Shown here: positions 42,789 through 63,176 of the stretch, one piece after another
Numbering within the stretch: the stretch's first letter is position 1
How the letters are laid out: the number at the start of each line of letters is the position of its first letter
From: Deltaproteobacteria bacterium IMCC39524
Lineage (GTDB): Bacteria > Desulfobacterota > Desulfuromonadia > Desulfuromonadales > BM103
DNA: 64,000 bases
NCBI GenBank assembly: GCA_029667085.1
Contig: JARUHJ010000010.1
Location: forward strand, 1 to 64,000
Reading direction: 5' to 3'
Program-made: the position numbers and the translations under genes
The notes under the pieces: generated by a model
Told to the model about the DNA's origin: nothing
Databases searched by the model: none
The model's input: only the letters and a program-made list of their open reading frames with translations

Positions 42789-43055
42789 ATGCGCAAATCG
42801 AAGTTCAGCGAAGCACAGACCATCAGGATACTAAAGGAAGCCGAGACCGGTAAATCTATCCGTGAGATCTGTCGTGAACATGGGATTTCCATCGCAACGT
42901 TTTATCGCTGGCAATCTCTCTACGGTGGGATGGAAGTGTCGGAATTGGCCCGATTGAAAGAACTCGAACAAGAGAATCGACGTCTCAAGCAAATGTTTGC
43001 CGACACAAGTCTTGAGAATAAGATTCTGAAGGAAGTTATCGAAAAAAAGCTCTGA
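42789..43055 (+). CDS. IS3-family transposase OrfA
   Basis: 88 residues: KFSEAQTIRILKEAETGKSI and IREICREHGISIATFYRW form the HTH, then a leucine-zipper stretch (LKELEQENRRLKQMFAD). The 3' end contains a run of seven A (GAAAAAAAGC near 43046) where -1 slippage into orfB would occur. First frame of the element; starts 40 bp inside the left repeat. Confidence 0.88.
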   Translation: MRKSKFSEAQTIRILKEAETGKSIREICREHGISIATFYRWQSLYGGMEVSELARLKELEQENRRLKQMFADTSLENKILKEVIEKKL

Positions 43056-43060
43056 CGCCG

Positions 43061-43972: not shown

Positions 43973-44004
43973 GGCCACCAGGGTTCGACCCTTGGTGGCC
44001 TTTT
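43973..44004 (+). terminator. Hairpin terminator upstream of the thioredoxin-like gene
   Basis: GGCCACCAGGGT (43973-43984) pairs with ACCCTTGGTGGCC (43988-44000) with one bulged T, followed by TTTTC. The sequence GGTTCGACCC in the tip imitates a tRNA T arm, but no other tRNA part is present. Confidence 0.7.
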
Positions 44005-44171
44005 CTATAATGCAGGCGTAGTAAGAAGTAGTTATTCATTTCTCTAAGCTGAACTATCTCAAGAAAGAGGGGAGCATAAACAAAAAACTCTCTTCTTTGA
44101 TCTCCACTCGTGAACGCGTATAATTAGCAACATCTTATTTGTGCAGTTTCTCAAGAATTTAGGGGGCAATT

Positions 44172-44522
44172 TTGAAGGTTCTATTTTTAGGCGTATGTTT
44201 ATTGCTGATTGTCAGTATATGTTCGGCTGAACAACTACCTCGGCTGGTCGATGTCGGTGCTCATAAATGTATCCCGTGCATCAAGATGGCGCCAATACTT
44301 GATCAACTCCGGGAAGACTTTTCCGATAAGTTGGAAGTCAAATTCGTTGATGCTTGGGAAAACCGGGAAGAAGCGGCCAGCTACAATGTGCAGATGATTC
44401 CAACCCAGATCTTTTACGCCATAGATGGTAAGGAGCTCTACCGCCATACTGGTTTCTACGGTCGGGAGGATATCCTCGGAAAATGGCGCGAACTCGGTTA
44501 TGAATTTGTAACGAATAAATGA
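44172..44522 (+). CDS. Exported thioredoxin-fold protein
   Basis: 116 residues from a TTG start with AGGGGG six bases upstream. Signal peptide MKVLFLGVCLLLIVSICSA, then a thioredoxin fold with C33-I-P-C36 as the redox pair and the cis-proline in VQMIPTQIF. Periplasmic disulfide exchange is likely. The gene overlaps the CcdA-like gene by 4 bp; the pair would form a complete membrane-to-periplasm electron route. Confidence 0.88.
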   Translation: MKVLFLGVCLLLIVSICSAEQLPRLVDVGAHKCIPCIKMAPILDQLREDFSDKLEVKFVDAWENREEAASYNVQMIPTQIFYAIDGKELYRHTGFYGREDILGKWRELGYEFVTNK

Positions 44523-45223
44523 TGCTTGAGCAACTACTGACAACCCTGAGCCATGCGGTTTCGGGAACACCCATAATTGCTTTCATTGCAGCGGCATCTT
44601 GGGGTGTTCTAAGCATAGTCCTCTCCCCATGTCACTTAGCCAGTATTCCACTGGTCGTCGGGTTTATCGAGGGACAAAGTCAAATGAGCACCCGCCGGGC
44701 GTTTCTGATCTCCAACCTGTTTGCGGTGGGCATTCTGATCTCTATTGGTTTGATCGGGGTTGCCACGGCTCTGGCCGGTCGGATGCTCGGAGACCTGGGC
44801 TCCTATGGCAACTGGTTGGTAGCAGGAATTTTTTTCCTGTTCGGCCTGCATCTCTGGGGCCTGATCCCGATGCCTTGGTCTGGGCCTCCTCAGGTCGGGA
44901 TCAAACGCAGAGGCTTACTGGCTGCATTGATGCTCGGCGTGATCTTTGGCATTGCCTTGGGACCATGCACTTTCGCCTTTATGGGGCCGGTGCTGGGTGT
45001 TGCCTTTGCAGAAGCAGACAGCAACACTCTTTACGCGGTTTTGTTACTTCTTGCTTATGGTTTTGGTCATTGCGCCGTGATCGTTTTCGCCGGAACATTT
45101 ACAGAGAAGGTGCAACAATATCTCAACTGGAATGAACGCTCGCGGGGCACGCTTTGGGTTAAACGTGTCTGTGGCCTGTTGGTTATAGCTGGTGGTTTCT
45201 GGCTGATCTATACGGCACGGTAA
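44519..45223 (+). CDS. CcdA/DsbD-type membrane thiol transporter
   Basis: 234 residues with six hydrophobic segments. The two membrane cysteines of the family are C38 in VLSPCHLASIP and C150 in ALGPCTFAFMGPV, each in the conserved PC context. CcdA moves reducing equivalents from cytoplasmic thioredoxin to periplasmic partners, here most likely the thioredoxin-fold protein encoded just before it. Cytochrome c maturation or another thiol substrate cannot be told apart. Confidence 0.9.
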   Translation: MMLEQLLTTLSHAVSGTPIIAFIAAASWGVLSIVLSPCHLASIPLVVGFIEGQSQMSTRRAFLISNLFAVGILISIGLIGVATALAGRMLGDLGSYGNWLVAGIFFLFGLHLWGLIPMPWSGPPQVGIKRRGLLAALMLGVIFGIALGPCTFAFMGPVLGVAFAEADSNTLYAVLLLLAYGFGHCAVIVFAGTFTEKVQQYLNWNERSRGTLWVKRVCGLLVIAGGFWLIYTAR

Positions 45224-45299
45224 CTCTCGCAATTTACCACTTATCAGACATGGAAATGGCCCACCCCGAAAACCGGCCAGATCCGGCTCCGTAAAATGT

Positions 45300-45785
45300 T
45301 CAGTCTTGCAGATGGGCCAGATTGTAATCTTCGGTGAGCATCTCCAGGTGACCATGGGTCATGCGGGCGTTGCTCAGATAAACTTCGCGCACCGCTACAT
45401 CTTCAATTCGCTCGGCAATCGCCCGTAATTCTTCTTCCAGAGCTTGTTCAAGCTGCATCGCCAGAGCCAGTGCTTGTTTTTCGTCAAAATCTCCGAGCAT
45501 AGCTTCCTTCAGCTCTTTCAACCAGATTGAGTCGGCGTCGGGAGGGGCGGCCATCATGGTGTCAAACGGGGGCAGACCGTCCCGGCTGTAAGCCTCGTAG
45601 AAGGAGCGGGCGTGCTCACGTTCTTCATGTGCCAGCAGCTTAAAGGTCAGGCGCGGGCGCTCGTTGTACATCTTCTCGCCTGCCAGACGATAAAAATCCA
45701 TGGCATCCTTTTCAGTCTGGATGGAATCATTAATCGCCTGCTTGAGCTGCTCTTCACGCAGGATAGTTACTTTTCGTTGCCACAT
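45300..45785 (-). CDS. Ferritin-like/rubrerythrin-type diiron protein
   Basis: 161 residues, all helical. Carboxylate and histidine ligands appear as TEKDAMDFYR, HEEREHARSFY and in the second half as LEQALEEELRA and MTHGHLEML, the four-helix-bundle pattern of the ferritin-like superfamily. There is no rubredoxin domain. Probable function: iron handling or peroxide reduction in the cytoplasm. Strong GGAGG before the ATG. It faces away from the sORF region to its right. Confidence 0.82.
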   Translation of the reverse strand: MWQRKVTILREEQLKQAINDSIQTEKDAMDFYRLAGEKMYNERPRLTFKLLAHEEREHARSFYEAYSRDGLPPFDTMMAAPPDADSIWLKELKEAMLGDFDEKQALALAMQLEQALEEELRAIAERIEDVAVREVYLSNARMTHGHLEMLTEDYNLAHLQD

Positions 45786-46004
45786 GACACCTCCTTCGTA
45801 ACATTTGTCCCCCGGTCTGGCTCAGTTTATAAAAACGTGTACTAAAGCCTCAGTCAACAAGACAAAAATCGCTCTGAATTAGTCAATTTTACCACTCGCA
45901 TATCAGGGCGCTAATTTTTTCAAATACAAGCAGTTGTGTCAGTAGGCATATATAGCCGGCAAGCCCCTTCGTTTCGCAACTATCCTGACAGAAGGGGGAG
46001 TCAT
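45786..46004 (+). promoter_or_regulatory. Leader with hairpin masking the ribosome-binding site of a 27-codon ORF
   Basis: CCCCTTC (45964-45970) can pair with GAAGGGG (45991-45997), placing the GGGGGAG ribosome-binding site inside the stem. Opening of the hairpin would be needed for translation. The remaining 180 bp upstream hold no gene; possible promoter hexamers are weak. Confidence 0.5.
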
Positions 46005-46088
46005 ATGTCCAAGGGAGTTTTGGCAGGTGACAGACTGCCCGATAAGTCACGCATTCCAATAACGATGAAAGCTTCCTGGCAATCGTGA
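46005..46088 (+). CDS. Candidate small ORF (27 aa)
   Basis: ATG at 46005 has AGGGGGAG ending 5 bases upstream, the frame runs 27 codons to TGA at 46086-46088, and a terminator follows 8 bp later. The peptide begins MSKGVLAGD and ends KASWQS; it is basic and has no hydrophobic helix or cysteine. A well-formed start and terminator make a real small gene plausible. It converges on the amidotransferase gene, 128 bp away. No family recognised. Confidence 0.5.
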   Translation: MSKGVLAGDRLPDKSRIPITMKASWQS

Positions 46089-46095
46089 TAAGTAG

Positions 46096-46130
46096 GAAAA
46101 GCCTCTATTAAGGAGATCGAGGGCTTTTTC
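46096..46130 (+). terminator. Terminator after the 27-codon ORF
   Basis: AAAAGCCTC (46097-46105) pairs with GAGGGCTTTT (46119-46128) with a bulge, followed by a T run. It could act in either direction but the T tract favours the + strand. Confidence 0.7.
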
Positions 46131-46215
46131 ATATTATGGCTAGTGAAATATAAAAATGATTCATATTACTTGTCTGCTCCCAGAAATGAAGAGGTAAAAA
46201 GTGGCAAATATCCAC

Positions 46216-46881
46216 TCATGAGTCACTCCGCAGCAACCAGCGAAACAATTTCCATTGTGAAGGGAGATAGAAGAGATATTCTGGATGCCACTGCACTCCG
46301 ATAATTCGATGTTTGTCACGACTTTCTATGGCCTGAATAATCTGGTCGAGATCCCAGCCGACAGCTTTTATGTTGTCGGCTGGCACCTTAATTGCCTGAT
46401 GATGGAGGCTGTTGACACGCAAGTGAACCCTTTTGCAAATGCGGCTCAATCGCGATTTTTCCTCCAGATAAACCTGTTTGGTCGGCAATAGCCCGGGGCG
46501 ATTGTAAGTGAGTTTTCGTAGAGAGCGGATGTCCTGATGAAGGCTGCCGCCAAGAACGACATTGATCAACTGAGCACCACGACAAATTCCCAACAGGGGT
46601 ATCTGCTTCTTCAGGGCATATTTAATCCAGCCTATTTCCAGCTGGTCGCGTTCTGGATCCAATTTGACTTTTTCCCGGATATCTCCGCCATAGTGCTCCG
46701 GACCTATATCATTGCCTCCGCCAATCACCAATGCTACCAGTGTGTTTTCGTTCGCAGAATGCTTCAGGCTGATTCGGATAGCTTTGGCTCCAGCTAGCCA
46801 AAGCGCAAGGTGCGTACACCACCAGGCGGGTGCCCAGCGGCGTGCGGAGCCTGTTACTCCGACATAAGGTCGTGATGCCAT
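46216..46881 (-). CDS. Class I glutamine amidotransferase-like hydrolase (peptidase C26 family)
   Basis: 221 residues from the ATG at 46881; a TTG at 46902 would lengthen the overlap with the amidoligase gene from 28 to 49 bp. IGGGNDIGPEHYGG, the nucleophile elbow GICRGAQ with C100, and VQWHPEYL supply the Cys-His-Glu triad of gamma-glutamyl hydrolases such as PuuD. Alone it would cleave gamma-glutamyl amides. Its overlap with an amidoligase gene suggests that it supplies or removes the amide made by that enzyme. This pairing is known from comparative genomics of amidoligases. Confidence 0.85.
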   Translation of the reverse strand: MASRPYVGVTGSARRWAPAWWCTHLALWLAGAKAIRISLKHSANENTLVALVIGGGNDIGPEHYGGDIREKVKLDPERDQLEIGWIKYALKKQIPLLGICRGAQLINVVLGGSLHQDIRSLRKLTYNRPGLLPTKQVYLEEKSRLSRICKRVHLRVNSLHHQAIKVPADNIKAVGWDLDQIIQAIESRDKHRIIGVQWHPEYLFYLPSQWKLFRWLLRSDS

Positions 46882-47837
46882 TGATCTATCACATCTGTCC
46901 AATCGCTTCGACTCACACCGAGCAGCGGTCTGGACATAGTTAGAAATTGATCTGTAAGTTGCTGGAGAGATTCTTTGTGCGCGGCCAAACGTTCCACAAT
47001 CAGCCAGCTATCCCAGGCGCTGACCAGTGACCACTCGGGCTTTTCGATGTGGCAATCTGGCAGACGATAGTGAAAGGCTGGTCGAGCCTGTATGCGATCA
47101 TCTCCCACAGCGTTATGAACCCGCTCCGCATCAATCTCTGCGAGCAGTGGCAACATGTCCAGAGCGCGGTTGCGACTAGCGTTATGCTCCAGGTAATTGT
47201 CAAACAAACTGTCCAGAGAAGGGTCTTTGCTGGCGAATAGCTGCTCAAGATAAGCTTCTGGATAAAGGTCGATGTAGGGGCTAAGCTTCCTGGTTAAATT
47301 GATATCGTATCTATCGACCAACCACCACTGCAGCAATGCAAAAGCCCGTAAATACGAATAGAGATGTGTTGCGTCAATTCGAGGGATCTCAGCGTTAATG
47401 TGGACGCCGAACGCCGCGATGACCGAACTTTCAGTGCCTGTCGCACCGGCTTCGCGTAGGGCAGATGTCATCGGGGTCAGGACCCCCAGTTTGTCCAGAG
47501 ACACTGGTGGACAAACGATTTCGACAGGAACCAGCAAGGCTGCAGATTGGCTCAACAGTTCAAGCCATTGGCTGGGGTTTTTCCCTTCCTCTGCAGCCTC
47601 TGCTTTGATGTAGCTCCAATCCAGTTCGACACTGAATTCTCCTAAGGAATCAACCTGAAGAACGGATTTAGCTAGAGATATTTCGCGTAAAGCCCCTCCA
47701 AGGACCTTCTGCAGAATTTGTCCGGTTTCTGAAATCGTTAAACCAGTAAATTCAAGCTCAAAACCGACGCGTCTCAATTGGCCATCACTGTTGTAGTGCG
47801 CGGTAGGTAATGTAAATCTCCTGGGGGCATTTTTCAT
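46854..47837 (-). CDS. Amidoligase (glutamine-synthetase/COOH-NH2 ligase fold)
   Basis: 327 residues. The N-terminal RVGFELEFTGL carries the E-x-E metal-binding motif of the amidoligase family, and FGVHINAEIP is the second conserved block; the rest fits Pfam Amidoligase_2. Such enzymes join carboxyl and amino groups with ATP, and are predicted to make small peptides or tag proteins. The gene overlaps the downstream hydrolase gene and follows a YqaE-type gene by 33 bp. Substrate unknown. Confidence 0.82.
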   Translation of the reverse strand: MKNAPRRFTLPTAHYNSDGQLRRVGFELEFTGLTISETGQILQKVLGGALREISLAKSVLQVDSLGEFSVELDWSYIKAEAAEEGKNPSQWLELLSQSAALLVPVEIVCPPVSLDKLGVLTPMTSALREAGATGTESSVIAAFGVHINAEIPRIDATHLYSYLRAFALLQWWLVDRYDINLTRKLSPYIDLYPEAYLEQLFASKDPSLDSLFDNYLEHNASRNRALDMLPLLAEIDAERVHNAVGDDRIQARPAFHYRLPDCHIEKPEWSLVSAWDSWLIVERLAAHKESLQQLTDQFLTMSRPLLGVSRSDWTDVIDQWHHDLMSE

Positions 47838-47870
47838 GTCGACTTCCTCGATTCGTTTTGGCGATTAAAG

Positions 47871-48029
47871 CTACTTTTTTGCAATAACCCAGACCGCGTG
47901 CACAATGCCAGGAATGTATCCTAACAGGGTGAGGATGATGTTGATCCAGAAGTGTTTGCCGATGCCAACCTGCAAGAAGACACCGAGAGGAGGGAGCAGA
48001 ATGGCAATGAGAATACGTAACAGATCCAT
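47871..48029 (-). CDS. YqaE/Pmp3-family small membrane protein
   Basis: 52 residues, not in the usual length range of gene callers. Two hydrophobic helices are separated by VGIGKHFWIN; LLPPLGVFLQVG and the ending YIPGIVHAVWVIAKK are the signature of the Pmp3/YqaE family. These proteins respond to salt and membrane stress. Here it heads a minus-strand group with the amidoligase and amidotransferase genes, so membrane stress may be the shared theme; that is inference. Confidence 0.9.
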   Translation of the reverse strand: MDLLRILIAILLPPLGVFLQVGIGKHFWINIILTLLGYIPGIVHAVWVIAKK

Positions 48030-48271
48030 GGAAAGCCCTTTCGTGGTTATTAAGCAGAGTAGCCTGAAAATGTTCTGTTTTTATTTTCCTTCGTGGGGGT
48101 TCTCTTCACAACCATCAAACACAAAGAATTCTGTCTTTATACCTTCGCTTTAGCTGTTCCGATTTTCCCTAGAGGAATCGTAGAAATTATGTGCAAGACT
48201 ATTAATTGAAAAGCTCATTGTGGTTTTCTTGATGTCAATCAGCAACAGTTAGGAAGTGTCCTTAAAGAAAT

Positions 48272-48604
48272 TCAGTCCTGATCCATTGCTTTCCCATAAT
48301 GTTTGAAAAGTTCTATTTGATAGTCACGACTGATAACTTTGTCTGGGTCGTACGGAGGCGCGGTCTGTATCAGTGACAGTTCAAGATCTGTCACGACAAT
48401 GCGATTCGTAAAATCAACCTCTTGCGCCCAGTTTGGAGGCAGTAAAACTTTCCGGCCTGGCAGCCAGGCGCTTGTCGCTACAACCAAATAACGGATTCTC
48501 CAAGTCCCTTCATCAAAGATAAAATCTGTGATTTTCCCTATTTCGCCATCAACAGCTTGTATCTGGCAGCCGCCAAGTTCACTTAATTTACTTAATTGTC
48601 TCAC
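48272..48604 (-). CDS. PRC-barrel domain protein
   Basis: 110 residues from the GTG at 48604, chosen because AAGGAG lies six bases before it; a TTG at 48622 precedes that site. ELGGCQIQAVDGEIGKITDF and WRIRYLVVATSAWLPGRKVLL give the PRC-barrel fold. Related proteins bind RNA or membranes and are often stress-induced in soil and sediment bacteria. Stands alone with 93 bp to the next gene. Confidence 0.8.
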   Translation of the reverse strand: MRQLSKLSELGGCQIQAVDGEIGKITDFIFDEGTWRIRYLVVATSAWLPGRKVLLPPNWAQEVDFTNRIVVTDLELSLIQTAPPYDPDKVISRDYQIELFKHYGKAMDQD

Positions 48605-48697
48605 TATCTTCTCCTTGTTCAACGCATTTAACCACTGGCCGGTACGAATAGTTTAAAGATATAGAATTGTGCACGTCTGCATCACCATTGCTGACGT

Positions 48698-48925
48698 CTA
48701 TGGCAAACCTTTTTCGATCCCTACCTTAATATATTTGACGACCTTTGCCACTTCTTCGTCATGTTCGTCTTCATCGAAAATGGAGCCGATCATTCCACCC
48801 AGGACCAGGCCGAGGAATTGCATGGTCTCATGTATTTTGTCTTGATCAAACTGGTGAGCAATCAGGGTCTTTTGAACGGATTTAGCAAGCTCAATATTGA
48901 GCCGATTCTCGGTCTTTTTTTTCAT
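48698..48925 (-). CDS. Small hypothetical protein
   Basis: 75 residues with AAGGAG seven bases before the ATG. Basic start, a central amphipathic/hydrophobic helix (METMQFLGLVLGGMIGSIF-like) and a very acidic DEDEHDEE stretch. No family recognised. The good ribosome-binding site supports it as a real gene. Lies between the PRC-barrel and glutamate dehydrogenase genes, same strand. Confidence 0.65.
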   Translation of the reverse strand: MKKKTENRLNIELAKSVQKTLIAHQFDQDKIHETMQFLGLVLGGMIGSIFDEDEHDEEVAKVVKYIKVGIEKGLP

Positions 48926-49004
48926 AGATATTCTCCTTGATTAGCCAGCCTCAGCAAAAGCACAGTGTCAGAAACGCAAAAGTCCATTTTCAATTCTATT
49001 TGAC

Positions 49005-50258
49005 TTAAAAACCCCTCATGTTAATTGCTTTTATGATACGTTCAACGGCAATCACATAAGCGGCCTGGCGATAGTTCAGTTTGTCCTGGTCAGCCTTGGC
49101 TCTGACCTCTTCCCACGCCTGTCTTAAGCGCCTGTCGAGTTCACCATTCACCTTCACTTCGTCCCATTGGTAACGTTGACGATTTTGCACCCATTCCAGA
49201 TAGGACACGACTACTCCCCCGGCATTTGCCAAGATGTCAGGGATCACAACGACCCCCTTGTCATTGAGCTTGCTATCCGCGTCACATGTGATCGGCATAT
49301 TGGCTGCTTCAACAATCATCTTGGCCTTCACGCTTTCGACGTTGTCTCTATTGATGACACCACCGACCGCTGCCGGAATGAGAACCTCGGTATCAAGTTG
49401 CAGTAATTCATCAATGGTTATCTTCTTGAAATCACCAGTACATTCCGAAAACTGTCCGCCTCCTTGCTTATGGTTGGCCATATCAACTAACATCTCAAGA
49501 TCAAGACCGTCTTTATTGTATAGTCCACAACTGGAATCTGAGATCGCAATTATTTGTGCTCCCCGCTCATGCAAAAATCGGGCAGCATTCGAGCCAACAT
49601 TACCGAACCCTTGAATAGCGACTTTCGTCGCACCTATATCAATCCCCAGTTTGTCAACAGCTATTGAAGTTATTAAAGCAGCTCCATAGCCCGTGGCTTC
49701 GAGCCGGCCTTTTGAACCGCCTAGTTCAATAGGTTTGCCAGTAGCAACGGCAGGGTTGAAACCTTCGCTAAGTGAAAATGCATCCACGATCCAGGCCATC
49801 TCTCGCGGGCCCGTTCCCATATCTGGAGCAGTAATGTCCCGATCAGGGCCAATGAGCATGGAAATCCTTTGAACGTAACGTTTGGTCAAGGTTTCCAGCT
49901 CATTGGATGAAAGTTGTGTGGGATCACAGTCAATTCCCCCCTTGCCACCACCGAAAGGCAAATCAAGTAGACTGGTTTTCCAGGTCATGATTTCTGCCAA
50001 AGCGACAAAATGTTCCAAATCGACGTCTTTATGGTAACGCAAGCCTCCTTTGAATGGCCCGCGGCTCTGGTTATGCTGAACCCGGTAACCATAAAACAGG
50101 CTGATTGAACCGTCATCACGCTTCAATGGCAGTTCGAATCGAACTTCGCGATAGGGACTGCGCAGCAACTGTTGCATCTCCGGGTCAATCTCCAGATGTT
50201 CAAAAGCATCATTGAGAAAGCTTTCACAACTTTTTCTAGGAGTATTATTGTTGTTCAA
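49005..50258 (-). CDS. gdhA: Glutamate dehydrogenase (Glu/Leu/Phe/Val family)
   Basis: 417 residues. The catalytic region LPFGGGKGGIDCDP, KGGLRYH (substrate lysine) and PDMGTGPREMAWI are followed by a Rossmann domain with GFGNVGSNAARFL. Interconverts glutamate and 2-oxoglutarate plus ammonium. The 417-residue length is typical of the hexameric short class (GDH-2). Near an antiporter and the sucrose operon it may supply glutamate as counter-ion osmolyte. Confidence 0.93.
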   Translation of the reverse strand: MNNNNTPRKSCESFLNDAFEHLEIDPEMQQLLRSPYREVRFELPLKRDDGSISLFYGYRVQHNQSRGPFKGGLRYHKDVDLEHFVALAEIMTWKTSLLDLPFGGGKGGIDCDPTQLSSNELETLTKRYVQRISMLIGPDRDITAPDMGTGPREMAWIVDAFSLSEGFNPAVATGKPIELGGSKGRLEATGYGAALITSIAVDKLGIDIGATKVAIQGFGNVGSNAARFLHERGAQIIAISDSSCGLYNKDGLDLEMLVDMANHKQGGGQFSECTGDFKKITIDELLQLDTEVLIPAAVGGVINRDNVESVKAKMIVEAANMPITCDADSKLNDKGVVVIPDILANAGGVVVSYLEWVQNRQRYQWDEVKVNGELDRRLRQAWEEVRAKADQDKLNYRQAAYVIAVERIIKAINMRGF

Positions 50259-50277
50259 TGGTATCTCCGTTCATCTC

Positions 50278-51513
50278 TTAATCGATCTGGTCATTTTTTT
50301 TCAAAGCCATCTTCAGCACCGGAGGTGTCATCAAAGTCGTAACGATTGCCATTATGACAACGGCCGAAAACAGGTAACGAATCACTGGCGGAGTTGGCTC
50401 CGGCAGGTTAAATATCCCGGCCCGCAAAGCGATATCCGCAATGATCAGTTCGACCGCTCCACGGGCGTTCATCCCCGCCCCTATTGCAAATGATTCCTTG
50501 TTCGACATACCCATTGCGCGGGCAGTCAAGCCAGCCCCTGCTACTTTACCGATCGTAGCTATAGCAAGTAGTGTCAATACGAAAAAAGGTATGGCTTGCA
50601 ACGCGCCAAGGTCAAGGTGAAGCCCGATCGAGGCGAAAAAAACCGGCGCAAGAAAACCAGTCGTTAAGCCTTTTGTTTTGGCGAGGATGTCATCATAGAC
50701 CTCCGGCGTGATAGTGCGACGACGGAAGAACAGGCCGGCCAGAAATGCGCCGAGGATAAAATGCATCCCCAGAGCCTCGGCCAGCAGTGCGTAGGCCAAA
50801 GCCGCAATCAGTAGCATACTGAATTCAAATTCTTCAGCTCGGCTCTTGACCAGACATCTACCGATTGCCGGAAACAGGTAGTGACCCATGACACTGGCCA
50901 AAAGGAAGAACAGGATAACTTTACCGAAGAGCAGCGCCAGAAATGACATTTCCGGGAGGCTGCCACTTTGCATAAAACTGGTCAGCACGGCAAGCATGAC
51001 CAGGCTAAATGTGTCGTCAATCACGGCTGCCGAAATAATGGTCTGTCCAACCTTGGTCTCCATCTTGCCGAGGTCCATAAGGGTTTTGATGCTCACGGGG
51101 ACGGCAGTCACTGCCATCACAGTGCCGAGGAAGAGCGCTTGGGCAAAGCGGAGTTCCGAAACGGGAAGGACCAGGAAACCGAAGGAGATTCCGAGGGCGA
51201 ACGGGATAACCATGCCGCCTGTTGCAACAACGGTGGCAACTTTGGAAGCTTTGAAGAGTTTGACCGGGTTCAACTCGATGCCGCCGAGCAACATCAGGAA
51301 GAAGATGCCAAGGTCTGTGATTGCGGTAAAGACCTCGTTGTCGGAGAGCCCCGCCAGAATCGGGAATGTCTCATGATAATTGTTGACCAACATTCCGAGA
51401 CAGACCCCCGAGACCAGTTCACCCAACAGCGCAGGTTGGCCAAAGCGTTCGGAGATCTCACCGAAGATCCGGGTTACGACCAGCAGAACCAAAAGGATGT
51501 AAATGATCGACAT
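50278..51513 (-). CDS. CPA2-family cation:proton antiporter
   Basis: 411 residues with about twelve transmembrane helices. ERFGQPALLGELVSGVCLGM opens the fold, and the central AAVIDDTFSLVMLA carries the paired aspartates expected in electrogenic Na+(K+)/H+ antiporters of the CPA2 group; GMNARGAVELIIADIAL is the conserved last part. No cytoplasmic NAD-binding (RCK) domain follows. Lies 20 bp upstream of gdhA on the same strand, probably an operon of antiporter-gdhA. Confidence 0.9.
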   Translation of the reverse strand: MSIIYILLVLLVVTRIFGEISERFGQPALLGELVSGVCLGMLVNNYHETFPILAGLSDNEVFTAITDLGIFFLMLLGGIELNPVKLFKASKVATVVATGGMVIPFALGISFGFLVLPVSELRFAQALFLGTVMAVTAVPVSIKTLMDLGKMETKVGQTIISAAVIDDTFSLVMLAVLTSFMQSGSLPEMSFLALLFGKVILFFLLASVMGHYLFPAIGRCLVKSRAEEFEFSMLLIAALAYALLAEALGMHFILGAFLAGLFFRRRTITPEVYDDILAKTKGLTTGFLAPVFFASIGLHLDLGALQAIPFFVLTLLAIATIGKVAGAGLTARAMGMSNKESFAIGAGMNARGAVELIIADIALRAGIFNLPEPTPPVIRYLFSAVVIMAIVTTLMTPPVLKMALKKNDQID

Positions 51514-51762: not shown

Positions 51763-51790
51763 TTTATTAACTCGATAACTTATCTAAAAT

Positions 51791-53944
51791 ATGGAACAAA
51801 AGACTGAAGGCTTCTATATCGTCCTCCTGAGTATTCACGGTCTGATTCGTGGCCACAATCTCGAACTGGGGCGGGATGCTGACACCGGTGGGCAAACCCT
51901 CTATGTCGTTGAACTGGCGCGTGCGCTAGCTCGAAACAGTGCAGTGCGCCAGGTGGATTTAGTTACGCGACGGGTTATTGACGACGAAGTCTCAAAAGAT
52001 TATGCCGAACCGGTCGAGCAACTGGAAGAAAATCTGCGCATTGTGCGAATCGAGGCGGGTTCACCGGAATACATCCCGAAAGAGCAGCTCTGGGATCATC
52101 TCGACAGCTTTGCCGATAATCTTGCCGAATTCTTCCGCAGTAACGAATTGCAGCCTGACATTCTTCACAGCCATTATGCGGATGCCGGCTACGTCGGCTC
52201 ACATCTGGCCAATTTACTTGCTGTTCCGCTCTTGCACACCGGGCATTCACTTGGTCGCGTCAAGCGGAGTCGTTTTCTCGCCAGCGGTTTGAGTAAGGAA
52301 GAGATCGAGAAGACGTTTAATATGAGCCGACGCATTACTGCGGAAGAGATGACGCTGGCAACGGCAGAAAGAGTTATTACCAGCACCCAGCAGGAGATTA
52401 AAGAGCAGTACGAACTTTACAACCATTACCAACCTGATCAGATGCGGGTCATTCCACCAGGCACGGACCTCGAGCAATTCAAGCCACCGGAAGGCACCGA
52501 AATCCCGTCCCCGCTCCACACGACATTAACACAACACCTGATTTGTCCGGACAAACCGATCATTCTCGCTCTCTCCCGCCCGGACAAACGTAAGAACATC
52601 ACGGCTTTGGTTGAAGCCTTTGGCCAATCTGAAGAGCTACAGAAATTAGCAAATCTGGTGATTGTTGCAGGAACTCGTGATGATATCGATGACCTGGAAG
52701 AGGGGGCTCAAGAAGTCTTCCACGACGTGCTGGTTACGATCGATCGTTATGATCTCTACGGGAAAGTCTCCCTGCCGAAGCAGCATGAACGCAGTCAGGT
52801 TTCGCTAATTTACCGTATTGCCGCAGCCTCTGGTGGCGTCTTCGTCAATCCGGCGTTGACCGAGCCTTTCGGCCTCACCTTGATTGAAGCTGCGGCGTCA
52901 GGATTGCCACTGGTCGCAACAGAAGATGGTGGCCCATGCGATATTATCAATAATTGCAAAAATGGTATTTTAATCGATCCGTTGGAGCCGGCATCCATCA
53001 CGCAGGCGCTATTGAGCTTGTTGCAAGGCAAAGAGATCTGGTCACGATACAGCAAAAGCGGCATCAAACAGGTACGCATACACTATTCATGGACCGCCCA
53101 TGCACAGCACTATATGAAGCTGGTTAAGGCGATCGCAGATCGCACCGAACTTCTGGTTCGTCATCCGGTCCGTGAACGTAGCGCGATTTACCGGGACCGG
53201 GCAATCGTCAGTGACCTGGATCAAAACCTGGTTGGCGATGATCATGCTCTACGTGAACTCAGTGAAGTTTTGCGTCAGCACCGGACTAGCACCTATTTCA
53301 TCATCGCGACAGGACGCAGGCTAGATTCTGCATTGAAGTTGATAAAAAAACATAAAATCCCGGCTCCTGATGTCCTGATCACCAGCAGCGGTACCGAAAT
53401 CTACTATGCACCGGAGCATGTTGCCGATGTCGCCTGGGGGCGACACATCGATCACCAGTGGGCCCCCCGTAGGGTCAAGAAAATCCTTGCAGATATTACA
53501 GGCCTGAAGCCACAGTTGAAACAGGAGCAGAGCAGCTTCAAAATCAGCTATTATATTGATCCGGAGCAGGTTGACCTGGAAGAGGTCATCACACTTCTGC
53601 ATCAGGAAGAACAATCGGTTCACGTGCAGATGGCCTTCGGACAATACTTGGATATTTTACCTTTGCGCGCCTCCAAAGGGCAGGCCCTGCGCTATGTCGT
53701 TGACCGGAAGGGAATCAATCTCGAAGCTGTTTTTGTGGCGGGAGGGTCAGGGGCAGACGAGGACATGATGCGTGGCAATACCTTGGCGGCTGTGGTTGCC
53801 AACCGTCATCACGAAGAATTGTCGCAATTGATCGATATTGACCGTATTTACTTCTCCGAGAAGTCACACGCTAGAGGCATTCTCGATGCCCTGCAACATT
53901 ACGATTTTTTTGACGCCTGCAAAGACCCTCTGGAAGTGAACTGA
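51791..53944 (+). CDS. sps: Sucrose-phosphate synthase with C-terminal HAD domain
   Basis: 717 residues. An N-terminal GT4 synthase domain (about 1-460) starts with LLSIHGLIRGHNLELGRDAD and includes the donor region NPALTEPFGLTLIEAAASG (E-x7-E). A C-terminal phosphatase-like HAD domain (about 475-710) starts with the acidic AIVSDLDQNL. Makes sucrose-6-phosphate from UDP-glucose and fructose-6-phosphate; the HAD part may act as a regulatory domain because a separate phosphatase gene follows. First gene of a four-gene operon. Confidence 0.93.
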   Translation: MEQKTEGFYIVLLSIHGLIRGHNLELGRDADTGGQTLYVVELARALARNSAVRQVDLVTRRVIDDEVSKDYAEPVEQLEENLRIVRIEAGSPEYIPKEQLWDHLDSFADNLAEFFRSNELQPDILHSHYADAGYVGSHLANLLAVPLLHTGHSLGRVKRSRFLASGLSKEEIEKTFNMSRRITAEEMTLATAERVITSTQQEIKEQYELYNHYQPDQMRVIPPGTDLEQFKPPEGTEIPSPLHTTLTQHLICPDKPIILALSRPDKRKNITALVEAFGQSEELQKLANLVIVAGTRDDIDDLEEGAQEVFHDVLVTIDRYDLYGKVSLPKQHERSQVSLIYRIAAASGGVFVNPALTEPFGLTLIEAAASGLPLVATEDGGPCDIINNCKNGILIDPLEPASITQALLSLLQGKEIWSRYSKSGIKQVRIHYSWTAHAQHYMKLVKAIADRTELLVRHPVRERSAIYRDRAIVSDLDQNLVGDDHALRELSEVLRQHRTSTYFIIATGRRLDSALKLIKKHKIPAPDVLITSSGTEIYYAPEHVADVAWGRHIDHQWAPRRVKKILADITGLKPQLKQEQSSFKISYYIDPEQVDLEEVITLLHQEEQSVHVQMAFGQYLDILPLRASKGQALRYVVDRKGINLEAVFVAGGSGADEDMMRGNTLAAVVANRHHEELSQLIDIDRIYFSEKSHARGILDALQHYDFFDACKDPLEVN

Positions 53945-53956
53945 GGATTCTGGGCT

Positions 53957-54823
53957 ATGAATCTAAAGCGTTTGCTTCTTTGCACAGACATGGATCGCAC
54001 CATTATTCCCAATGGCAACCAACCAGAGCATCCTGAGGCTCGTCGCTGCTTCCATGAGTTTTGCCAGCAGCCTGAGGTCTGTCTGGTCTATGTGACTGGC
54101 CGACACCAGGCCCTGGTGGAACAAGCTATCATCGACTATGCGCTGCCACTCCCCGATTACGCCATTACCGATGTCGGCAGTAAAATTTACTATTATATCG
54201 ATGACCAGGTGCAGGAAATGTCCGCCTGGGAGGACCAAATTTCTGCCGACTGGTGCGGCCAGAGTCATGCTCAACTCAAACGAGCGTTTCGTCACATTCG
54301 TGAGTTAACGTTGCAGGAAGAGGAAAAGCAGAATCGTTTTAAATTGAGCTACTACCTCGACCTGTATATCGACAAAGATGAGATTATTGCACAAATGGCA
54401 GCCATACTACATGACCTGGGCGTCCACGCCAGCTTGATCTGGAGCGTCGACGAGCCCATGCAGGTCGGCCTTCTGGATGTTCTGCCGCAAAACGCCACCA
54501 AGCTTCACGGTCTTCGGTTTCTTCAACAACATCTCGAATATGAAACCAAAGAAGTGGTCTTTGCCGGTGACAGTGGCAACGACCTTCCCGTGCTCGGCAG
54601 CGGTATCAATGCGGTTCTGGTAGCCAACGCCAGTGAAGAAGTCAGGGCTCTGGCTCAGAAAATGGCGTCCGACGGCGGTCACACGACGGCCCTTTATCTG
54701 GCCCGCGACGACACGTTTTCGTTGGGTGGCAATTATGCGGCTGGCGTGCTGCAGGGTATTTGGCATTTTCAACCTGAATTTCGAACCAGCTTGACCTCCA
54801 TCGGTTTTCAACATGATCTCTAA
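53957..54823 (+). CDS. spp: Sucrose-6-phosphate phosphatase (HAD IIB)
   Basis: 288 residues. The nucleophile aspartate pair D11/D13 in LLLCTDMDRT, ITDVGSKIYY, and the late GDSGNDLPVLGSG motif define a type IIB HAD phosphatase of the sucrose-phosphatase group. Removes phosphate from the synthase product. Starts 12 bp behind the synthase gene and overlaps the kinase gene by 11 bp. Confidence 0.92.
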   Translation: MNLKRLLLCTDMDRTIIPNGNQPEHPEARRCFHEFCQQPEVCLVYVTGRHQALVEQAIIDYALPLPDYAITDVGSKIYYYIDDQVQEMSAWEDQISADWCGQSHAQLKRAFRHIRELTLQEEEKQNRFKLSYYLDLYIDKDEIIAQMAAILHDLGVHASLIWSVDEPMQVGLLDVLPQNATKLHGLRFLQQHLEYETKEVVFAGDSGNDLPVLGSGINAVLVANASEEVRALAQKMASDGGHTTALYLARDDTFSLGGNYAAGVLQGIWHFQPEFRTSLTSIGFQHDL

Positions 54824-55697
54824 CCAACAGATAGCCCTCTTTGGCGAGGTTCTTTTTGATCTCTTTCCAACAGGTGAAAAAATCCTGGGCGGAGCGCCCT
54901 TCAATGTTGCCTGGAATCTGCAGGCCCTGGGTGACGCCCCACTTTTCATTTCACGCGTTGGCAAGGACAGCTATGGTACTGACATCCTGCAGGCAATGCG
55001 TACCTGGGGAATGAGCACGGAAGGGGTACAGTGTGACCCGGACCATGCCACGGGACAGGTCCAGGTTGAGCTGATTGACAATGAGCCGCGTTACCACATT
55101 GTTGCGGACAGTGCCTATGATTTCATTCATGAAGGCCAGCTACCGGTGCTTGGTAATGGTGTGCTGCTGTACCATGGCACCCTTGGCTTGCGTCACAGTG
55201 CATCGCGCAGCGCCTTGGAGCAACTGCGTCACTCTACCAGGATGTCGATCTTTCTCGATGTCAACCTGCGAGAGCCCTGGTGGGATCTGCAGACTGTGGA
55301 GAGCTGGCTCTCCACAGCCCGCTGGGTGAAGTTGAATAAAGATGAATTGCGCGCGCTCGGTTTTCAGGCAAAGAGTCTTGCCGACGCCCTGGAAAAACTA
55401 CAGCACAAATTTCAGATGGAACAGGTCATTTTAACCTGTGGCGAAGAAGGTGCGATCGTCAGGGAACAGAGCGGAGAGATACATCATCTTGCGGCCCCTC
55501 CGGTGGAAAATTTCATCGATACGGTTGGCGCCGGCGATGCGTTCACTGCTGTCTATCTGCATGGTCTTCTGGCAGGATGGAGCATTCCGGAAACACTTGA
55601 CGCGGCCCAGCGGTTTGCCGGAAAGGTCATCAGTTTGCGCGGTGCAACATCAACAGATGCATCTTTTTATCACCATTTTCTAGAGTCTTGTCGCTAA
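54813..55697 (+). CDS. Fructokinase (PfkB/ribokinase family)
   Basis: 294 residues. Substrate-binding GEVLFDLFPTGEKILGGAPFN near the start and the catalytic DTVGAGDAFTAV towards the C-terminus mark the PfkB family; the GGAPFNVAWNL signature is usual for fructokinases. In this operon it would recycle fructose released by amylosucrase into fructose-6-phosphate. Overlaps both neighbours. Confidence 0.92.
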   Translation: MISNQQIALFGEVLFDLFPTGEKILGGAPFNVAWNLQALGDAPLFISRVGKDSYGTDILQAMRTWGMSTEGVQCDPDHATGQVQVELIDNEPRYHIVADSAYDFIHEGQLPVLGNGVLLYHGTLGLRHSASRSALEQLRHSTRMSIFLDVNLREPWWDLQTVESWLSTARWVKLNKDELRALGFQAKSLADALEKLQHKFQMEQVILTCGEEGAIVREQSGEIHHLAAPPVENFIDTVGAGDAFTAVYLHGLLAGWSIPETLDAAQRFAGKVISLRGATSTDASFYHHFLESCR

Positions 55698-55720
55698 AGC
55701 TGGATAACCAAAGGCAACCT

Positions 55721-57676
55721 ATGTACGAACAGGTCTCACACTCTCTTCTGAATGACATCCTCAACCGGATCAAACCGGAGATCTCTAACCAGGATCTGCG
55801 GCATTTCTACACCCGCTTGGGGGCCAACTTTTACGCTATTCATTCCCTGTTCGAAACCCTCTACGGAGACCGTGAAGATTTTCATAAACATGCACAGTGC
55901 CTTGTCGAGACAATGGCACAGCATTATATCAAACGACCTGACCATCTGCGCCAAATTGACCTCGACAGGGAAAAAGACTTCAACTGGTTCCTTCATCAAA
56001 AATGGGTCGGAATGGCGCTTTACTGCAACGGCTTCGCCGGAACCTTGCGCGGATTGCAAGACCGCCTCGGCTACTTCGAGGAGCTGGGGGTCAACTTGGT
56101 TCATGTGATGCCGATTCTACGCTGCCCGGAAGGCAGTAGTGACGGCGGTTATGCTGTCAGCGACTTTCGCGAAATCGATCCGCATATCGGGACGTTAGAA
56201 GAGCTCTCTGAGTTGGCGGCCGAGATGCGAAAAAGAGAGATCCTGCTGGTTCTTGACGTGGTCGTCAACCACACCTCCGACCAACACTACTGGGCAGAGC
56301 AGGCGCGTGCCGGCGACCCTGTCTACCAGGACTATTACTACACCTTTGAGAGCCGTGAGATTCCTGACCTGTATGAGCAGGGCATGCCGGAGATTTTCCC
56401 GGAATCCTCGCCGGGGAATTTCACCTGGGACGAGACGATGGAACGCTGGGTCATGACCGTTTTCAACGATTACCAGTGGGACCTCAACTATAGCAATCCA
56501 GCTGTGTTCATAGAAATGCTCAACATTATCCTCTTCTGGGCCAATCAAGGTGCCGACATTCTGCGACTCGACGCGGTAGCTTTCTTGTGGAAGAAAATCG
56601 GTCGCGTCTGCCAGAATGAGCGGGAAGCCCACCTGATTTTGCAGTTGTTGAAAGATTGCTGTCAAGTCACGGCGCCAGGGGTTTTGTTTATCGCTGAGGC
56701 CATTGTGGCCCCGTTGGAAGTGATTAAGTACTTTGGGGAGGATGCGGTCATCGCTAAGGAATGTGAGATTGCCTACAATGCGACCTTCATGGCCCTGATG
56801 TGGGATGCTGCCGCGACCAAAAACGCCCGTCTATTGAATCAGGGGATCAAAAGTCTGCCGGTCAAACTGGAGCGGGCCACCTGGCTTAATTACATCCGCT
56901 GTCATGATGATATCGGTCTCGGTTTTGACGATCAGGACATTGTAGCCTGTGGATATGATCCAGTGCCTCATCGTAAGTTTCTGATTGATTATTTTACCGG
57001 CCAGTTTGACGAGTCCCATGCCAGAGGGTTGCCGTTCGGACAAAACAGCAAAACCGGAGACGCGCGCATCTCCGGTTCGCTTGCCTCTCTGGTCGGGTTA
57101 CAGCATGCTCTGGAGACAGGCGACGAACAGGCCATCGATGACTCGATCAAATTGATCCTTTTGCTGCACAATCTGATCCTCTCGTTCGGCGGCCTGCCGC
57201 TTCTCTATTATGGTGATGCTCTTGGTACGCTGAATGACGATTCCTACCTTGGAGATCCTCATAAAAAAGGTGACAACCGCTGGGTCCACAGGCCGACCAT
57301 TGATTGGCAAAAAGCAGACTTACGCTCAGTCCCCGGGACGCTGGAATACAAGATCTTCAACCCTCTCAAAAAAATGATTGCTGTTCGCAAGGAACTCCAG
57401 GTGTTTGCCGATTTTAACAACCGCGAGTTGTACGATTTGGACAACCCTCATCTGTTTGTGTTCGAACGCTATAGCCTGACTTCGCCGGCAGAGCGTGTTC
57501 TTGTGGTTGCCAACTTCAGTAATCAAACGCAGTTGATGACTTTTGAAGATATCGGCACCTGGGGTGCAGGTTATGGTGGCCTTGTTGATCAGATCTCTGG
57601 TGAATGCTTCGAAAAAACAGGGGCTTCTTTAGAGATCCAGGGTTATGGCTATTACTGGTTCAAGGAGCAACGTTGA
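55721..57676 (+). CDS. ams: Amylosucrase-type GH13 alpha-glucan-forming enzyme
   Basis: 651 residues from the ATG at 55721 (AAGG upstream; a TTG at 55688 adds eleven). The N-terminal all-helical domain (about 1-90) is specific to amylosucrase. Then comes the (beta/alpha)8 barrel: VVNHTSDQHYW, the nucleophile in ILRLDAVAF, the acid glutamate in LFIAEAIV and the HDD in YIRCHDDIG. It transfers glucose from sucrose to glucan and releases fructose, linking sucrose to glycogen. Last gene of the operon. Confidence 0.92.
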   Translation: MYEQVSHSLLNDILNRIKPEISNQDLRHFYTRLGANFYAIHSLFETLYGDREDFHKHAQCLVETMAQHYIKRPDHLRQIDLDREKDFNWFLHQKWVGMALYCNGFAGTLRGLQDRLGYFEELGVNLVHVMPILRCPEGSSDGGYAVSDFREIDPHIGTLEELSELAAEMRKREILLVLDVVVNHTSDQHYWAEQARAGDPVYQDYYYTFESREIPDLYEQGMPEIFPESSPGNFTWDETMERWVMTVFNDYQWDLNYSNPAVFIEMLNIILFWANQGADILRLDAVAFLWKKIGRVCQNEREAHLILQLLKDCCQVTAPGVLFIAEAIVAPLEVIKYFGEDAVIAKECEIAYNATFMALMWDAAATKNARLLNQGIKSLPVKLERATWLNYIRCHDDIGLGFDDQDIVACGYDPVPHRKFLIDYFTGQFDESHARGLPFGQNSKTGDARISGSLASLVGLQHALETGDEQAIDDSIKLILLLHNLILSFGGLPLLYYGDALGTLNDDSYLGDPHKKGDNRWVHRPTIDWQKADLRSVPGTLEYKIFNPLKKMIAVRKELQVFADFNNRELYDLDNPHLFVFERYSLTSPAERVLVVANFSNQTQLMTFEDIGTWGAGYGGLVDQISGECFEKTGASLEIQGYGYYWFKEQR

Positions 57677-61018: not shown

Positions 61019-62335
61019 ATGCCCATATACAGTAGTAGACAACAGAATATCGCCGAACAAATGTCAGAAGAGCCAGTCTCAATGTCTAACTGGAAAGATT
61101 GGCGCTGGCAACTTAAAAACTCGATTCAACAAGTAGAGACCTTTGAGAACCTTCTTGGCATTAGGTTTCAGGATAAAGAGCGCAGAAAAATTGATTTGAC
61201 TCTGAAGAGGTTTCCGCTCTCCATCACTCCTTATTATCTTTCGCTGATTGATGCGTCTGATTACAAAAACGACCCGGTTTATTTACAAGCCTTTCCATCT
61301 CCGGCCGAATTAGAGATTGGTAAAAATGACATGATTGACCCGCTGGCTGAGGACAAAGACAGCCCAGCCAAGGGAATTACGCATCGTTATCCTGATCGGG
61401 TTCTTTTTCATGTCAGCAATGTTTGCTCAATGTATTGTCGTCACTGTACTCGAAAGCGAAAAGTTGGAGATGTCGATTTCATCCCTGATCAGAATCAAAT
61501 CAGAGAAGGCCTCGATTACATTCGAAACACTCCGGCCATTCGCGATGTCCTCCTCTCAGGCGGCGACCCGTTGATGCTTCCGGACCACTACCTTGATTGG
61601 ATCCTGACTGAATTGCGACAGATTGAGCACGTTCAGGTGATTCGTATCGGTAGCCGCATGCCAGTTGTTCTGCCCTACCGTATTAACGAAGACTTTGTAA
61701 AGATGCTACAAAAGCATCAGCCTGTCTGGCTCAATACACACTTCAACCATCCGCGTGAGATTACGGCTTCTTCGCGTCAGGCGCTACGCCTGTTGGCAGA
61801 TGGCGGCATCCCTCTTGGCAACCAGTCAGTCCTGCTTGCAGGTGTCAATGACTGCCCACGTATCATGAAATCATTGGTTCATAAATTGGTAGAGAATCGT
61901 GTCCGGCCCTATTATCTCTATCAATGCGACCTTTCTGAGGGTTTGTCACATTTCCGTACTCCGGTTGGCAAGGGGGTTGAAATCATGGAAAGCCTGATTG
62001 GACACACCAGTGGTTTTTCGGTCCCGACCTATGTCATAGACGCACCGGGGGGAGGAGGAAAGATTCCACTCACGCCTAACTATCTCATCTCGTTAAGCAC
62101 AAACAAGGTGGTTCTGCGTAATTATGAAGGTGTGATTACCACCTACCAAGAGCCAGAAAAGTACGAATCTAATTTTTGCGACCGAAAATGCGATGAATGT
62201 CATCTGCAACTCAAACTTGAGGATGCTGATGAGTATTGCTCGACAGGCATCGAAAGGTTGTTAGCTGACTATGACAAAACGATATCTCTCACACCGATTG
62301 ACAACGACAGGTTCGAAAGGCGTAACAATGACTGA
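61019..62335 (+). CDS. ablA: Lysine 2,3-aminomutase
   Basis: 438 residues. Radical-SAM motif CSMYCRHC (CxxxCxxC) binds the iron-sulfur cluster, and [14 protein letters not shown] holds the conserved PLP-region lysine; a cysteine-containing C-terminal zinc region ([11 protein letters not shown]) follows. Converts L-lysine to beta-lysine. Overlap of 8 bp with ablB shows that the product goes into N-epsilon-acetyl-beta-lysine, a compatible solute. Confidence 0.96.
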
Positions 62336-63176
62336 TACTGTTGAGAAAGTTGGCAACTCGATCATTCAGCATGGACGTAACAATCAGCGAATATATCTGA
62401 TGAAATCTTCCGCTGACGATTTGCCAGGTCTGGCAATTAAACTTGATAACTTGGCCGCGACAAATAACTATTCAAAAATCTTTGCGAAAATACCAGAAAA
62501 GCAAAGGGATTTATTCTTGCACAACGGCTATCAGGTAGAAGCCTCGGTGCCCGGGTTGTTTAATGGCAAAGAGCAAGGGCTTTTCGTCAGCAAGTACCCA
62601 ATTGGTGACAGAGGGAGAGAGACACAACCCGACCTCGTTAACGAAATCCTGGAAACTGCCAAGGCAAAGCAGGGTCTGGTCTCGGGGTTAGGTCTGTCTG
62701 ATTGCGTCTGCCGTCCGCTTTTTGCGGAAGATATGGATAAGGCAGCCAGCCTCTACCGCCTTGTCTTCGACAGCTATCCCTTCCCAATTGATGACCCTGA
62801 TTACCTTAGAAGTACAATGGATCACATCGCCTACTACGGCGTATGGTCTGCTGATCAATTAGTTGCTCTCTCTTCTGCTGAAATCGACTACGAGAACGCC
62901 AACGCAGAAATGACTGATTTTGCAACCCACCCAGATCACCAAGGTCAAGGTTTCGCCAGTTTCCTTCTGGCTCGGATGGAGATAGACATGAAAGACCGGC
63001 AAATAGCAACGTTATATACCATCGCCCGGGCGTACTCGTACGGTATGAATGTCACCTTTGCCAAAAATGGTTATTTCTTTAGTGGAACGTTAACGAATAA
63101 CACTCAAATTTCAGGCAGCCTCGAAAGCATGAACGTCTGGTACAAGCTTTTACCTGTTGCAATAGAGCCAATATGA
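62328..63176 (+). CDS. ablB: Beta-lysine N6-acetyltransferase
   Basis: 282 residues from the ATG at 62328 (GAAAGG seven bases upstream); the ATG at 62271 would overlap ablA by 65 bp. A GNAT fold occupies the C-terminal half: acetyl-CoA binding at [16 protein letters not shown]. Together with AblA makes N-epsilon-acetyl-beta-lysine. The stop overlaps the next ATG (ATGA), tying a small membrane protein gene to the operon. Confidence 0.94.

Follow-up and report, generated by a model that had tools for sequence, protein, structure and literature searches.

A possible gamma-glutamyl cycle encoded by an amidoligase and Peptidase_C26 gene pair in an osmotic-stress gene island

This study concerns a stretch of 64,000 nucleotides from Deltaproteobacteria bacterium IMCC39524 (positions 1 to 64,000 of contig JARUHJ010000010.1, our contig C10, in a genome of 3.78 Mb), hereafter termed the window, and in it a minus-strand gene pair, which encodes a predicted glutamine synthetase (GS)-like amidoligase and an overlapping hydrolase of the family Peptidase_C26. 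The pair is the known two-gene module of a ligase and an amidotransferase-fold protein, here sited in an island of osmotic-stress genes. With respect to its function, we see an even chance that both proteins constitute a gamma-glutamyl cycle, where the predicted ligase would form a gamma-glutamyl amide that would in turn be cleaved by the C26 hydrolase. The families of both proteins, the catalytic triad of the hydrolase, the co-conservation of the genes, the replacement of one partner, the gene context and the exchange of the surrounding block can be read from sequence comparisons.

A predicted amidoligase and an overlapping hydrolase

The pair and a small membrane protein are encoded by three tightly packed minus-strand genes, an arrangement noted in a preliminary description of the window and borne out by Pfam matches and coordinates:

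46216..46881, minus strand, Peptidase_C26/gamma-glutamyl hydrolase-like protein, 221 residues (PF07722, E 5.7e-44)
46854..47837, minus strand, GS-like amidoligase (Amidoligase_2), 327 residues (PF12224, E 4.5e-65)
47871..48029, minus strand, Pmp3/YqaE small membrane protein, 52 residues (PF01679, E 7.3e-24)

A gap of 33 bp separates the end of the Pmp3 gene from the amidoligase gene. The open frame of the C26 protein comprises positions 46216-46902 with a likely start at the ATG at 46881, which would result in the described overlap of 28 bp with the ligase gene.

The assignment of the ligase is based on its match to PF12224 (220 bits compared to a Pfam curated score of 22), the only Pfam family that it matches. 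Twenty positions, including E27, E29, D73, E106, N148, R222, D227, R252, H256, R258 and E282, are identical in all 47 aligned ligases, as would be expected of residues in metal- and ATP-binding sites. A sequence search against solved structures returned a single match at chance level (E 0.57), and with a profile search there was no match up to E 1. The best of the AlphaFold models, predicted from eight sequences, has a pLDDT (predicted local distance difference test) of 75 and a pTM (predicted template-modelling score) of 0.75, with the other four models at a pLDDT of 67-70. Its top solved matches in Foldseek are a plant glutamate-cysteine ligase (GCL, E 0.047), YbdK and Dop, none at E <= 0.001, and 13 of the first 20 matches, equally above this threshold, are GCL, YbdK, Dop or GS structures, which we take to form a GS/GCL superfamily.

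The C26 protein matches PF07722 with 151 bits (curated score 20.5) and PF00117 (GATase) with 52.5 bits, and its predicted triad C100, H199 and E201 is kept in 35 of 35 aligned C26 partners. Among five sequence matches in the PDB, Lin1909 ranks best and PuuD third. Since it reaches only 71 bits against the PuuD equivalog NF008471, whose cut-off is 266, the protein is not PuuD itself.

Conservation of the pair and replacement of the hydrolase

The surroundings of the ligase were compared in 47 loci scanned with hidden Markov models, each of which was built from 1 to 13 sequences. Of these loci, 46 hold the ligase (L139 from genome G013 is without). The set is not random, as it includes the 98%-identical copy in genome G016, which belongs to the same genus, several near-copies and plasmid matches, and some of its stretches are short (4.9 kb in L060 and 6.7 kb in L062). 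Outside the count of 46 are L044 and L045 (from G238 and G247; E 1e-12 and 1e-7, in frames of 691 and 940 residues), a partial match in G851 (E 9.5e-4) and the loci L055-L057, which contain strong PF12224 matches and no tblastn match to the window ligase and which were judged by eye to be prophage-like from a neighbouring frame of 1182 residues.

An adjacent amidotransferase-fold gene on the same strand, which together with the ligase defines the two-gene module, is found in the window and in 35 of the 46 other loci, where a C26 gene adjoins or overlaps that of the ligase. In four others (L058-L060 and L062, all from one genus), a GGACT-type gene is located in the place of C26 and in the same overlapping position. 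Its product in L058 is a GGACT/AIG2-type gamma-glutamyl cyclotransferase-like protein (PF06094, E 7.3e-12), for which neither NCBIfam (up to E 1e-10) nor a sequence search of the PDB (up to E 0.01) gave a match. In a midpoint-rooted tree of 47 ligases, these four loci form a single clade (100/98) that is nested in a clade (100/99) with the C26-bearing loci L064 and L116, so that a single replacement of C26 by the GGACT-type protein offers the simplest account. Such an exchange of a hydrolase for a cyclotransferase-like protein would be sensible if both act on a gamma-glutamyl amide made by the ligase. Both kinds occur together in L137 and L138, where the ligase has a C26 neighbour and a GGACT-type gene is encoded on the opposite strand at a distance of 3-4 kb. 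L063 holds the only gamma-glutamyltransferase gene of the 46 stretches (TIGR00066 over its cut-off; PF01019). It ends 6 bases upstream of the amidoligase open reading frame, and it adds a third kind of gamma-glutamyl enzyme to the C26 and GGACT-type companions of the ligase. The common denominator of the pair loci is, judged from these families, probably gamma-glutamyl amide chemistry.

The preliminary description had proposed a system of four parts, in which an amide-making ligase and amidotransferase would be joined by the stress-type membrane protein and by a small open frame. Only the window and its relative G016 have Pmp3 directly beside the ligase; it is found about 3.7 kb from the ligase in L127 and about 5.4 kb from it on the plasmid pDSHI02 of Dinoroseobacter shibae. 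A search with PF01679 located it anywhere in 9 of 19 ligase-bearing genomes or records and in one of four ligase-free congeners, and in the remaining ligase loci, the retrieved stretch was searched for it with a model built from a single sequence. We have thus rejected Pmp3 as an obligate partner, and it does not qualify as a conserved part of the system. Since the small frame is not conserved either, as described further below, the four-part system reduces to the known two-gene module, of which the pair and its likely amide chemistry stand.

A putative gamma-glutamyl cycle and its alternatives

In the proposed cycle, the GS-like amidoligase would activate a gamma-carboxylate, that of glutamate or of a glutamyl group, with ATP and subsequently couple it to an amine. 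The C26 cysteine hydrolase, which is co-translated with the ligase, would split the resulting gamma-glutamyl amide by means of Cys100, His199 and Glu201 and give back glutamate, and both enzymes would jointly set the level of the gamma-glutamylated amine. Given that the pair is part of a horizontally exchanged island of osmotic-stress genes, cells under salt stress may produce this amide as an osmolyte, or as a form in which an amine is stored or detoxified. We infer the directions of both reactions, the role of glutamate as acyl donor and the osmotic function from the families and their context. The cycle is consistent with the frequent presence of C26 next to the ligase, the complete conservation of its triad, the replacement by a GGACT-type protein, the transferase in L063, the occurrence of PuuD among the PDB sequence matches and that of a plant GCL and YbdK at the top of the fold matches, which are not significant, and also with a glutamate dehydrogenase gene close to the pair in both the window and G047 and with the osmotic context described below.

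The same families permit other assignments. The C26/GATase protein could serve as a glutaminase and supply the amidoligase with ammonia, with both forming one amidating synthetase, as suggested by its additional match to PF00117 and by the linkage of the ligase to a GATase_6 domain protein in L056 and, by homology, in L055 and L057. We regard this as unlikely in light of the far better match to PF07722 and of the clade where a GGACT-type protein takes the place of C26, since members of this type are not known to release ammonia from glutamine. A second alternative is a tagging system, with glutamate or a peptide being coupled to a protein by the ligase and released again by the hydrolase, in a similar manner as PafA and Dop attach and remove Pup. 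Tagging by such ligases was reportedly predicted in the 2009 survey of Iyer et al., and Dop structures account for four of the first 12 fold matches, which are not significant. However, the companions of the ligase are C26, GGACT-type and gamma-glutamyltransferase proteins, whose known members act on small gamma-glutamyl molecules, and the sole candidate for a small peptide is an artefact, with other conserved small genes not having been searched systematically, so that we consider tagging distinctly improbable.

In the PuuA/PuuD pathway, a GS-fold gamma-glutamyl ligase and a C26 hydrolase act on gamma-glutamyl-putrescine. The pair would follow the same logic with its predicted GS-like ligase and PuuD-like C26 hydrolase, and gamma-glutamylation could thus be the first step in the breakdown of an amine. 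An aldehyde dehydrogenase gene located directly upstream in L068 would fit this assignment, but no such dehydrogenase was detected among the scanned window neighbours or in the annotation of six other annotated plasmid loci. The pair also differs from PuuA/PuuD in that the ligase matches PF12224 only, that the C26 protein remains far below the PuuD cut-off and that neither oxidase nor dehydrogenase steps were seen, and we deem amine utilization a minor prospect. Finally, the ligase might amidate a component of the cell wall, as is suggested for the amidoligase of phage phiEco32 in passages of PMC10580990 and PMC11318856, both of which cite Iyer et al. 2009. Such a modification of the cell surface is very unlikely here, as the scanned genes of the window block include no cell-wall gene and only isolated cases were found elsewhere (a lytic transglycosylase a few kb upstream in L063 and a CsiV-type gene in L005).

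Several observations weigh against a gamma-glutamyl cycle or its osmotic role. The named ligases in the Foldseek list reach TM-scores (template-modelling scores) of 0.33 or less, with 0.047 as best E-value; seven of the 46 loci, which form one clade, contain neither a C26 nor a GGACT partner; and near the more distant ligases in L055-L057, a GATase_6 gene is found in place of C26. With regard to the osmotic link, five of six loci where the gene of a mechanosensitive channel of the MscS family neighbours the ligase belong to one clade. This leaves at most two independent linkage events, and we thus do not accept this linkage as a proof of function. Of eight MscS matches in genome G000, seven were listed, and none of these is next to the pair of the window. 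Besides MscS, there is no osmotic family among the 25 listed of the 74 families for 62 neighbour proteins from 24 other loci. In G016, the copy of the block is devoid of positions 49601-51331 and both glutamate dehydrogenase and antiporter are consequently broken while the pair is kept, and neither of the two is therefore needed for its persistence.

Genomic context and the osmotic link

Between 45 and 64 kb of the window, the pair is located among genes for an antiporter, glutamate dehydrogenase and the synthesis of sucrose and N-acetyl-beta-lysine. The minus-strand run proceeds from the cation antiporter through glutamate dehydrogenase, a 75-residue protein, a PRC-barrel protein and Pmp3 to the amidoligase and C26, and plus-strand genes are located at higher coordinates than the antiporter:

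48272..48622, minus strand, PRC-barrel protein (PF05239, E 2.5e-10)
48698..48925, minus strand, 75-residue protein without Pfam match, with an 85% identical copy beside antiporter and glutamate dehydrogenase genes in G013
49005..50258, minus strand, glutamate dehydrogenase (PF00208, E 1.4e-74), cut short in G016
50278..51513, minus strand, CPA2-type cation:proton antiporter (PF00999, E 7.3e-59), mostly absent from the block copy in G016
51791..57676, plus strand, sucrose-phosphate synthase/phosphatase, second phosphatase-like protein, PfkB kinase and amylase-family enzyme (TIGR02472, profile scans)
61019..63176, plus strand, AblA lysine 2,3-aminomutase and AblB beta-lysine N-acetyltransferase (TIGR03820, TIGR03827)

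Cut-offs are exceeded by the sucrose-phosphate synthase/phosphatase (658 bits for TIGR02472, cut-off 576), by AblA (768 bits, cut-off 525) and by AblB (318 bits, cut-off 205); the other three sucrose genes are below the NCBIfam equivalog cut-offs and the antiporter, with 156 bits, is under the cut-off of 238 for TIGR00932. A formate/nitrite transporter gene at 57810-58229 covers only the C-terminal half of its profile (117-239 of 240), and the copy in G047 is of full length. No structured RNA was found in a search of 44000-50000 against Rfam up to E 1.

Comparable neighbours recur elsewhere. In G047, whose ligase is 63% identical, the same strand encodes, in this order, the ligase, C26 and a formate/nitrite transporter. 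Also present within 9 kb are a glutamate dehydrogenase gene, two lysine-aminomutase-like genes and, where the contig ends, the last part of an antiporter frame. On pDSHI02, the pair is found with a formate/nitrite transporter, a PRC-barrel protein, a baeRF12 protein and the mentioned Pmp3, and its neighbours in Limnobacter include OsmC, MarR, an ABC transporter and a tannase-like protein. Within the 46 stretches, the formate/nitrite transporter occurs in four (L031, L061, L069 and L130) and glutamate dehydrogenase in two (L031, where it is cut short, and L061). The neighbour scan described above covered proteins chosen from 96 that were listed, and MscS is the commonest among the listed families (5), next to LexA-type proteins (3) and a second C26/GATase (3).

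A search of 39 genomes with PF00924 placed an MscS gene no more than about 4 kb from the ligase in at least six of them. With 191 matches in the 39 genomes, or about five in each, and a genome size of about 4 Mb, we calculate that chance alone would place one inside the 5 kb flanking the ligase on each side in about 0.5 of 39. A channel of about 800 residues is encoded divergently from the amidoligase in L119, L120, L123, L124 and L132, and two MscS genes are close to the ligase in L005. Together with the island, this makes an osmotic role of the pair plausible. A more specific version, which we put forward as rather doubtful, would have the pair make and recycle an undescribed gamma-glutamyl compatible solute. 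The mobile osmoadaptation island would then combine three osmolyte routes (sucrose, N-acetyl-beta-lysine and the gamma-glutamyl amide) with ion transport, and in another lineage an MscS release channel would share a divergent promoter region with the pair.

A second putative amidoligase, in which DUF2126 is fused to a transglutaminase domain, is encoded near the pair in L004 (3754-7134).

An exchanged block and the distribution of the ligase

Positions 46051-60126 of the window match contig C81 of G016 with 98% identity, except for the mentioned 49601-51331, whose loss leaves residues 221-417 of glutamate dehydrogenase and removes most of the antiporter. At its left edge the shared block is bounded by a 38-base repeat and at its right edge the G016 contig ends, with ablAB located beyond the matched part. 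Since the region at 22.0-35.0 kb is only 78, 87 and 92% identical to G016 in three long segments, the higher identity within the block argues for its recent horizontal exchange as a stress island. Near this block, two consecutive frames at 42789-43870 resemble what we presume to be a transposase of the IS3 type. A stretch of 52 bases just before this transposase-like gene (42711-42762) recurs in L031 (6620-6671, 94%), where it is located 13 bases left of the edge of the G016 block.

The ligase is sparsely distributed. It was found in 2 of 22 genomes of the family, 9 of 136 of the order (protein search), 6 of 395 of the phylum and 23 of 398 of the phylum of Limnobacter, and PF12224 matches 14 of 277 genomes of the class, two of them weakly and three through the more distant type of ligase. 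The ligase is also present in 11 plasmid records, eight of which were taken for the comparison of loci, the other three being repeats of the same species. No match was obtained in a tblastn search of 50,697 phage records at E <= 1e-5.

Relation to known systems

Amidoligase/GATase pairs reportedly trace back to Iyer, Abhiman, Burroughs and Aravind in 2009. The pair resembles this module in combining a PF12224 ligase with an amidotransferase-fold gene and differs from it by a partner of the Peptidase_C26 family, whose gene overlaps that of the ligase, by its chromosomal stress-gene context and by the use of a GGACT-type protein in one clade. The glutamine-derived amide NAGGN (N-acetylglutaminylglutamine amide) is an osmolyte made under salt stress, and the likeness to its synthesis extends to the proposed role only, as the enzymes differ. 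Phage amidoligases are described, in excerpts of PMC10580990, PMC11318856 and PMC10945688, to occur with a GATase or a gamma-glutamyl cyclotransferase and to have suggested roles in cell-wall modification or nitrogen metabolism. The sets with a cyclotransferase, as presented in passages of PMC10945688 and PMC11318856, likewise combine both enzyme classes. They differ in that their genes belong to phages or prophages, and the window ligase is without counterpart in the phage records searched.

In the portions of the literature on the family that were at hand, no assayed PF12224 ligase appears and members are annotated by name only, and among the matches listed for an amidoligase together with osmotic, Pmp3, compatible-solute or mechanosensitive terms, none mentions an amidoligase. 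The present comparison adds the cyclotransferase-like replacement in a cellular clade, the linkage to a transferase and the osmotic context, which the 2009 survey may have noted. With the replacement, the range of likely products narrows to a gamma-glutamyl amide, so that a targeted assay becomes possible, and the stress-gene context suggests a growth condition under which to look for this product.

A short open frame at a recombination joint

Convergent to the pair, the preliminary description had noted a 27-codon frame as potential substrate or regulator of the enzymes. The relevant features are:

46005..46088, plus strand, 27-codon open frame, chimeric and judged not to be a gene, with halves matching separate places in relatives
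46051..46088, plus strand, 38-bp interspersed repeat at the left edge of the shared block, defined by DNA matches in related genomes
46095..46130, strand not assigned, terminator-like hairpin between the convergent frames and inside the shared block, defined by shuffle z-scores

The frame exists with its 27 residues and ends 127 bp from the C26 stop codon, rather than the reported 128, but its status as a gene did not hold. In a DNA search with 45940-46140 over the 22 genomes of the family, the query was split in two. Its left part matches contigs C77 of G016 (45940-46055) and C139 of G015 (45940-46051) with 93% identity each, with the longer stretch 45269-46055, which includes a ferritin-like gene, being 94% identical. 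The right part (46051-46140) matches C81 of G016 beside its amidoligase with 99% identity, and the joint between both pieces falls within the frame. The frame is broken in all three examined places of relatives that hold one half: in C77 of G016 and C139 of G015, the first half reads MSKGVLAGD followed by a stop at codon 10, and at the amidoligase locus of G016, two stop codons immediately precede the shared part. A phmmer search with the 27 residues against all frames of the 47 other loci found no intact copy, and its sole match (E 0.002) is the tail that the repeat encodes in G016, with the next best at E 2.6. The repeat itself is found with 82-92% identity at a dozen further places in genomes of the family, including L013-L019. 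These matches identify the frame as an artefact of a recombination joint, where the upstream region of the ferritin-like gene meets an interspersed repeat at the edge of the block. A genuine peptide gene that acts as substrate or regulator of the pair, for which an ATG, a ribosome-binding site that looks plausible and a hairpin further downstream could be quoted, is in light of the interrupted copies hardly credible. The 27-codon frame is equally not conserved as a precursor for a ribosomally synthesized and post-translationally modified peptide with the ligase as tailoring enzyme, a candidate that we rejected, with other small genes not having been searched systematically.

The hairpin that had been reported at the ribosome-binding site of the frame folds no better than shuffled sequences (z 0.50; 134 of 200 shuffles as good). 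The terminator ascribed to the frame corresponds to the hairpin at 46095-46130, which is indeed more stable than shuffles on the plus strand (z -2.51; 3 of 200 as good) but not on the minus strand (z -0.85; 41 of 200), and which is absent from the listing of a consensus scan. It is most simply explained as the terminator of the minus-strand genes instead of one owned by the frame. On the other side of the joint, the region upstream of the ferritin/rubrerythrin-like gene (45940-46055), which is kept at 93% in G015 and G016, contains short inverted repeats and might constitute a regulatory element.

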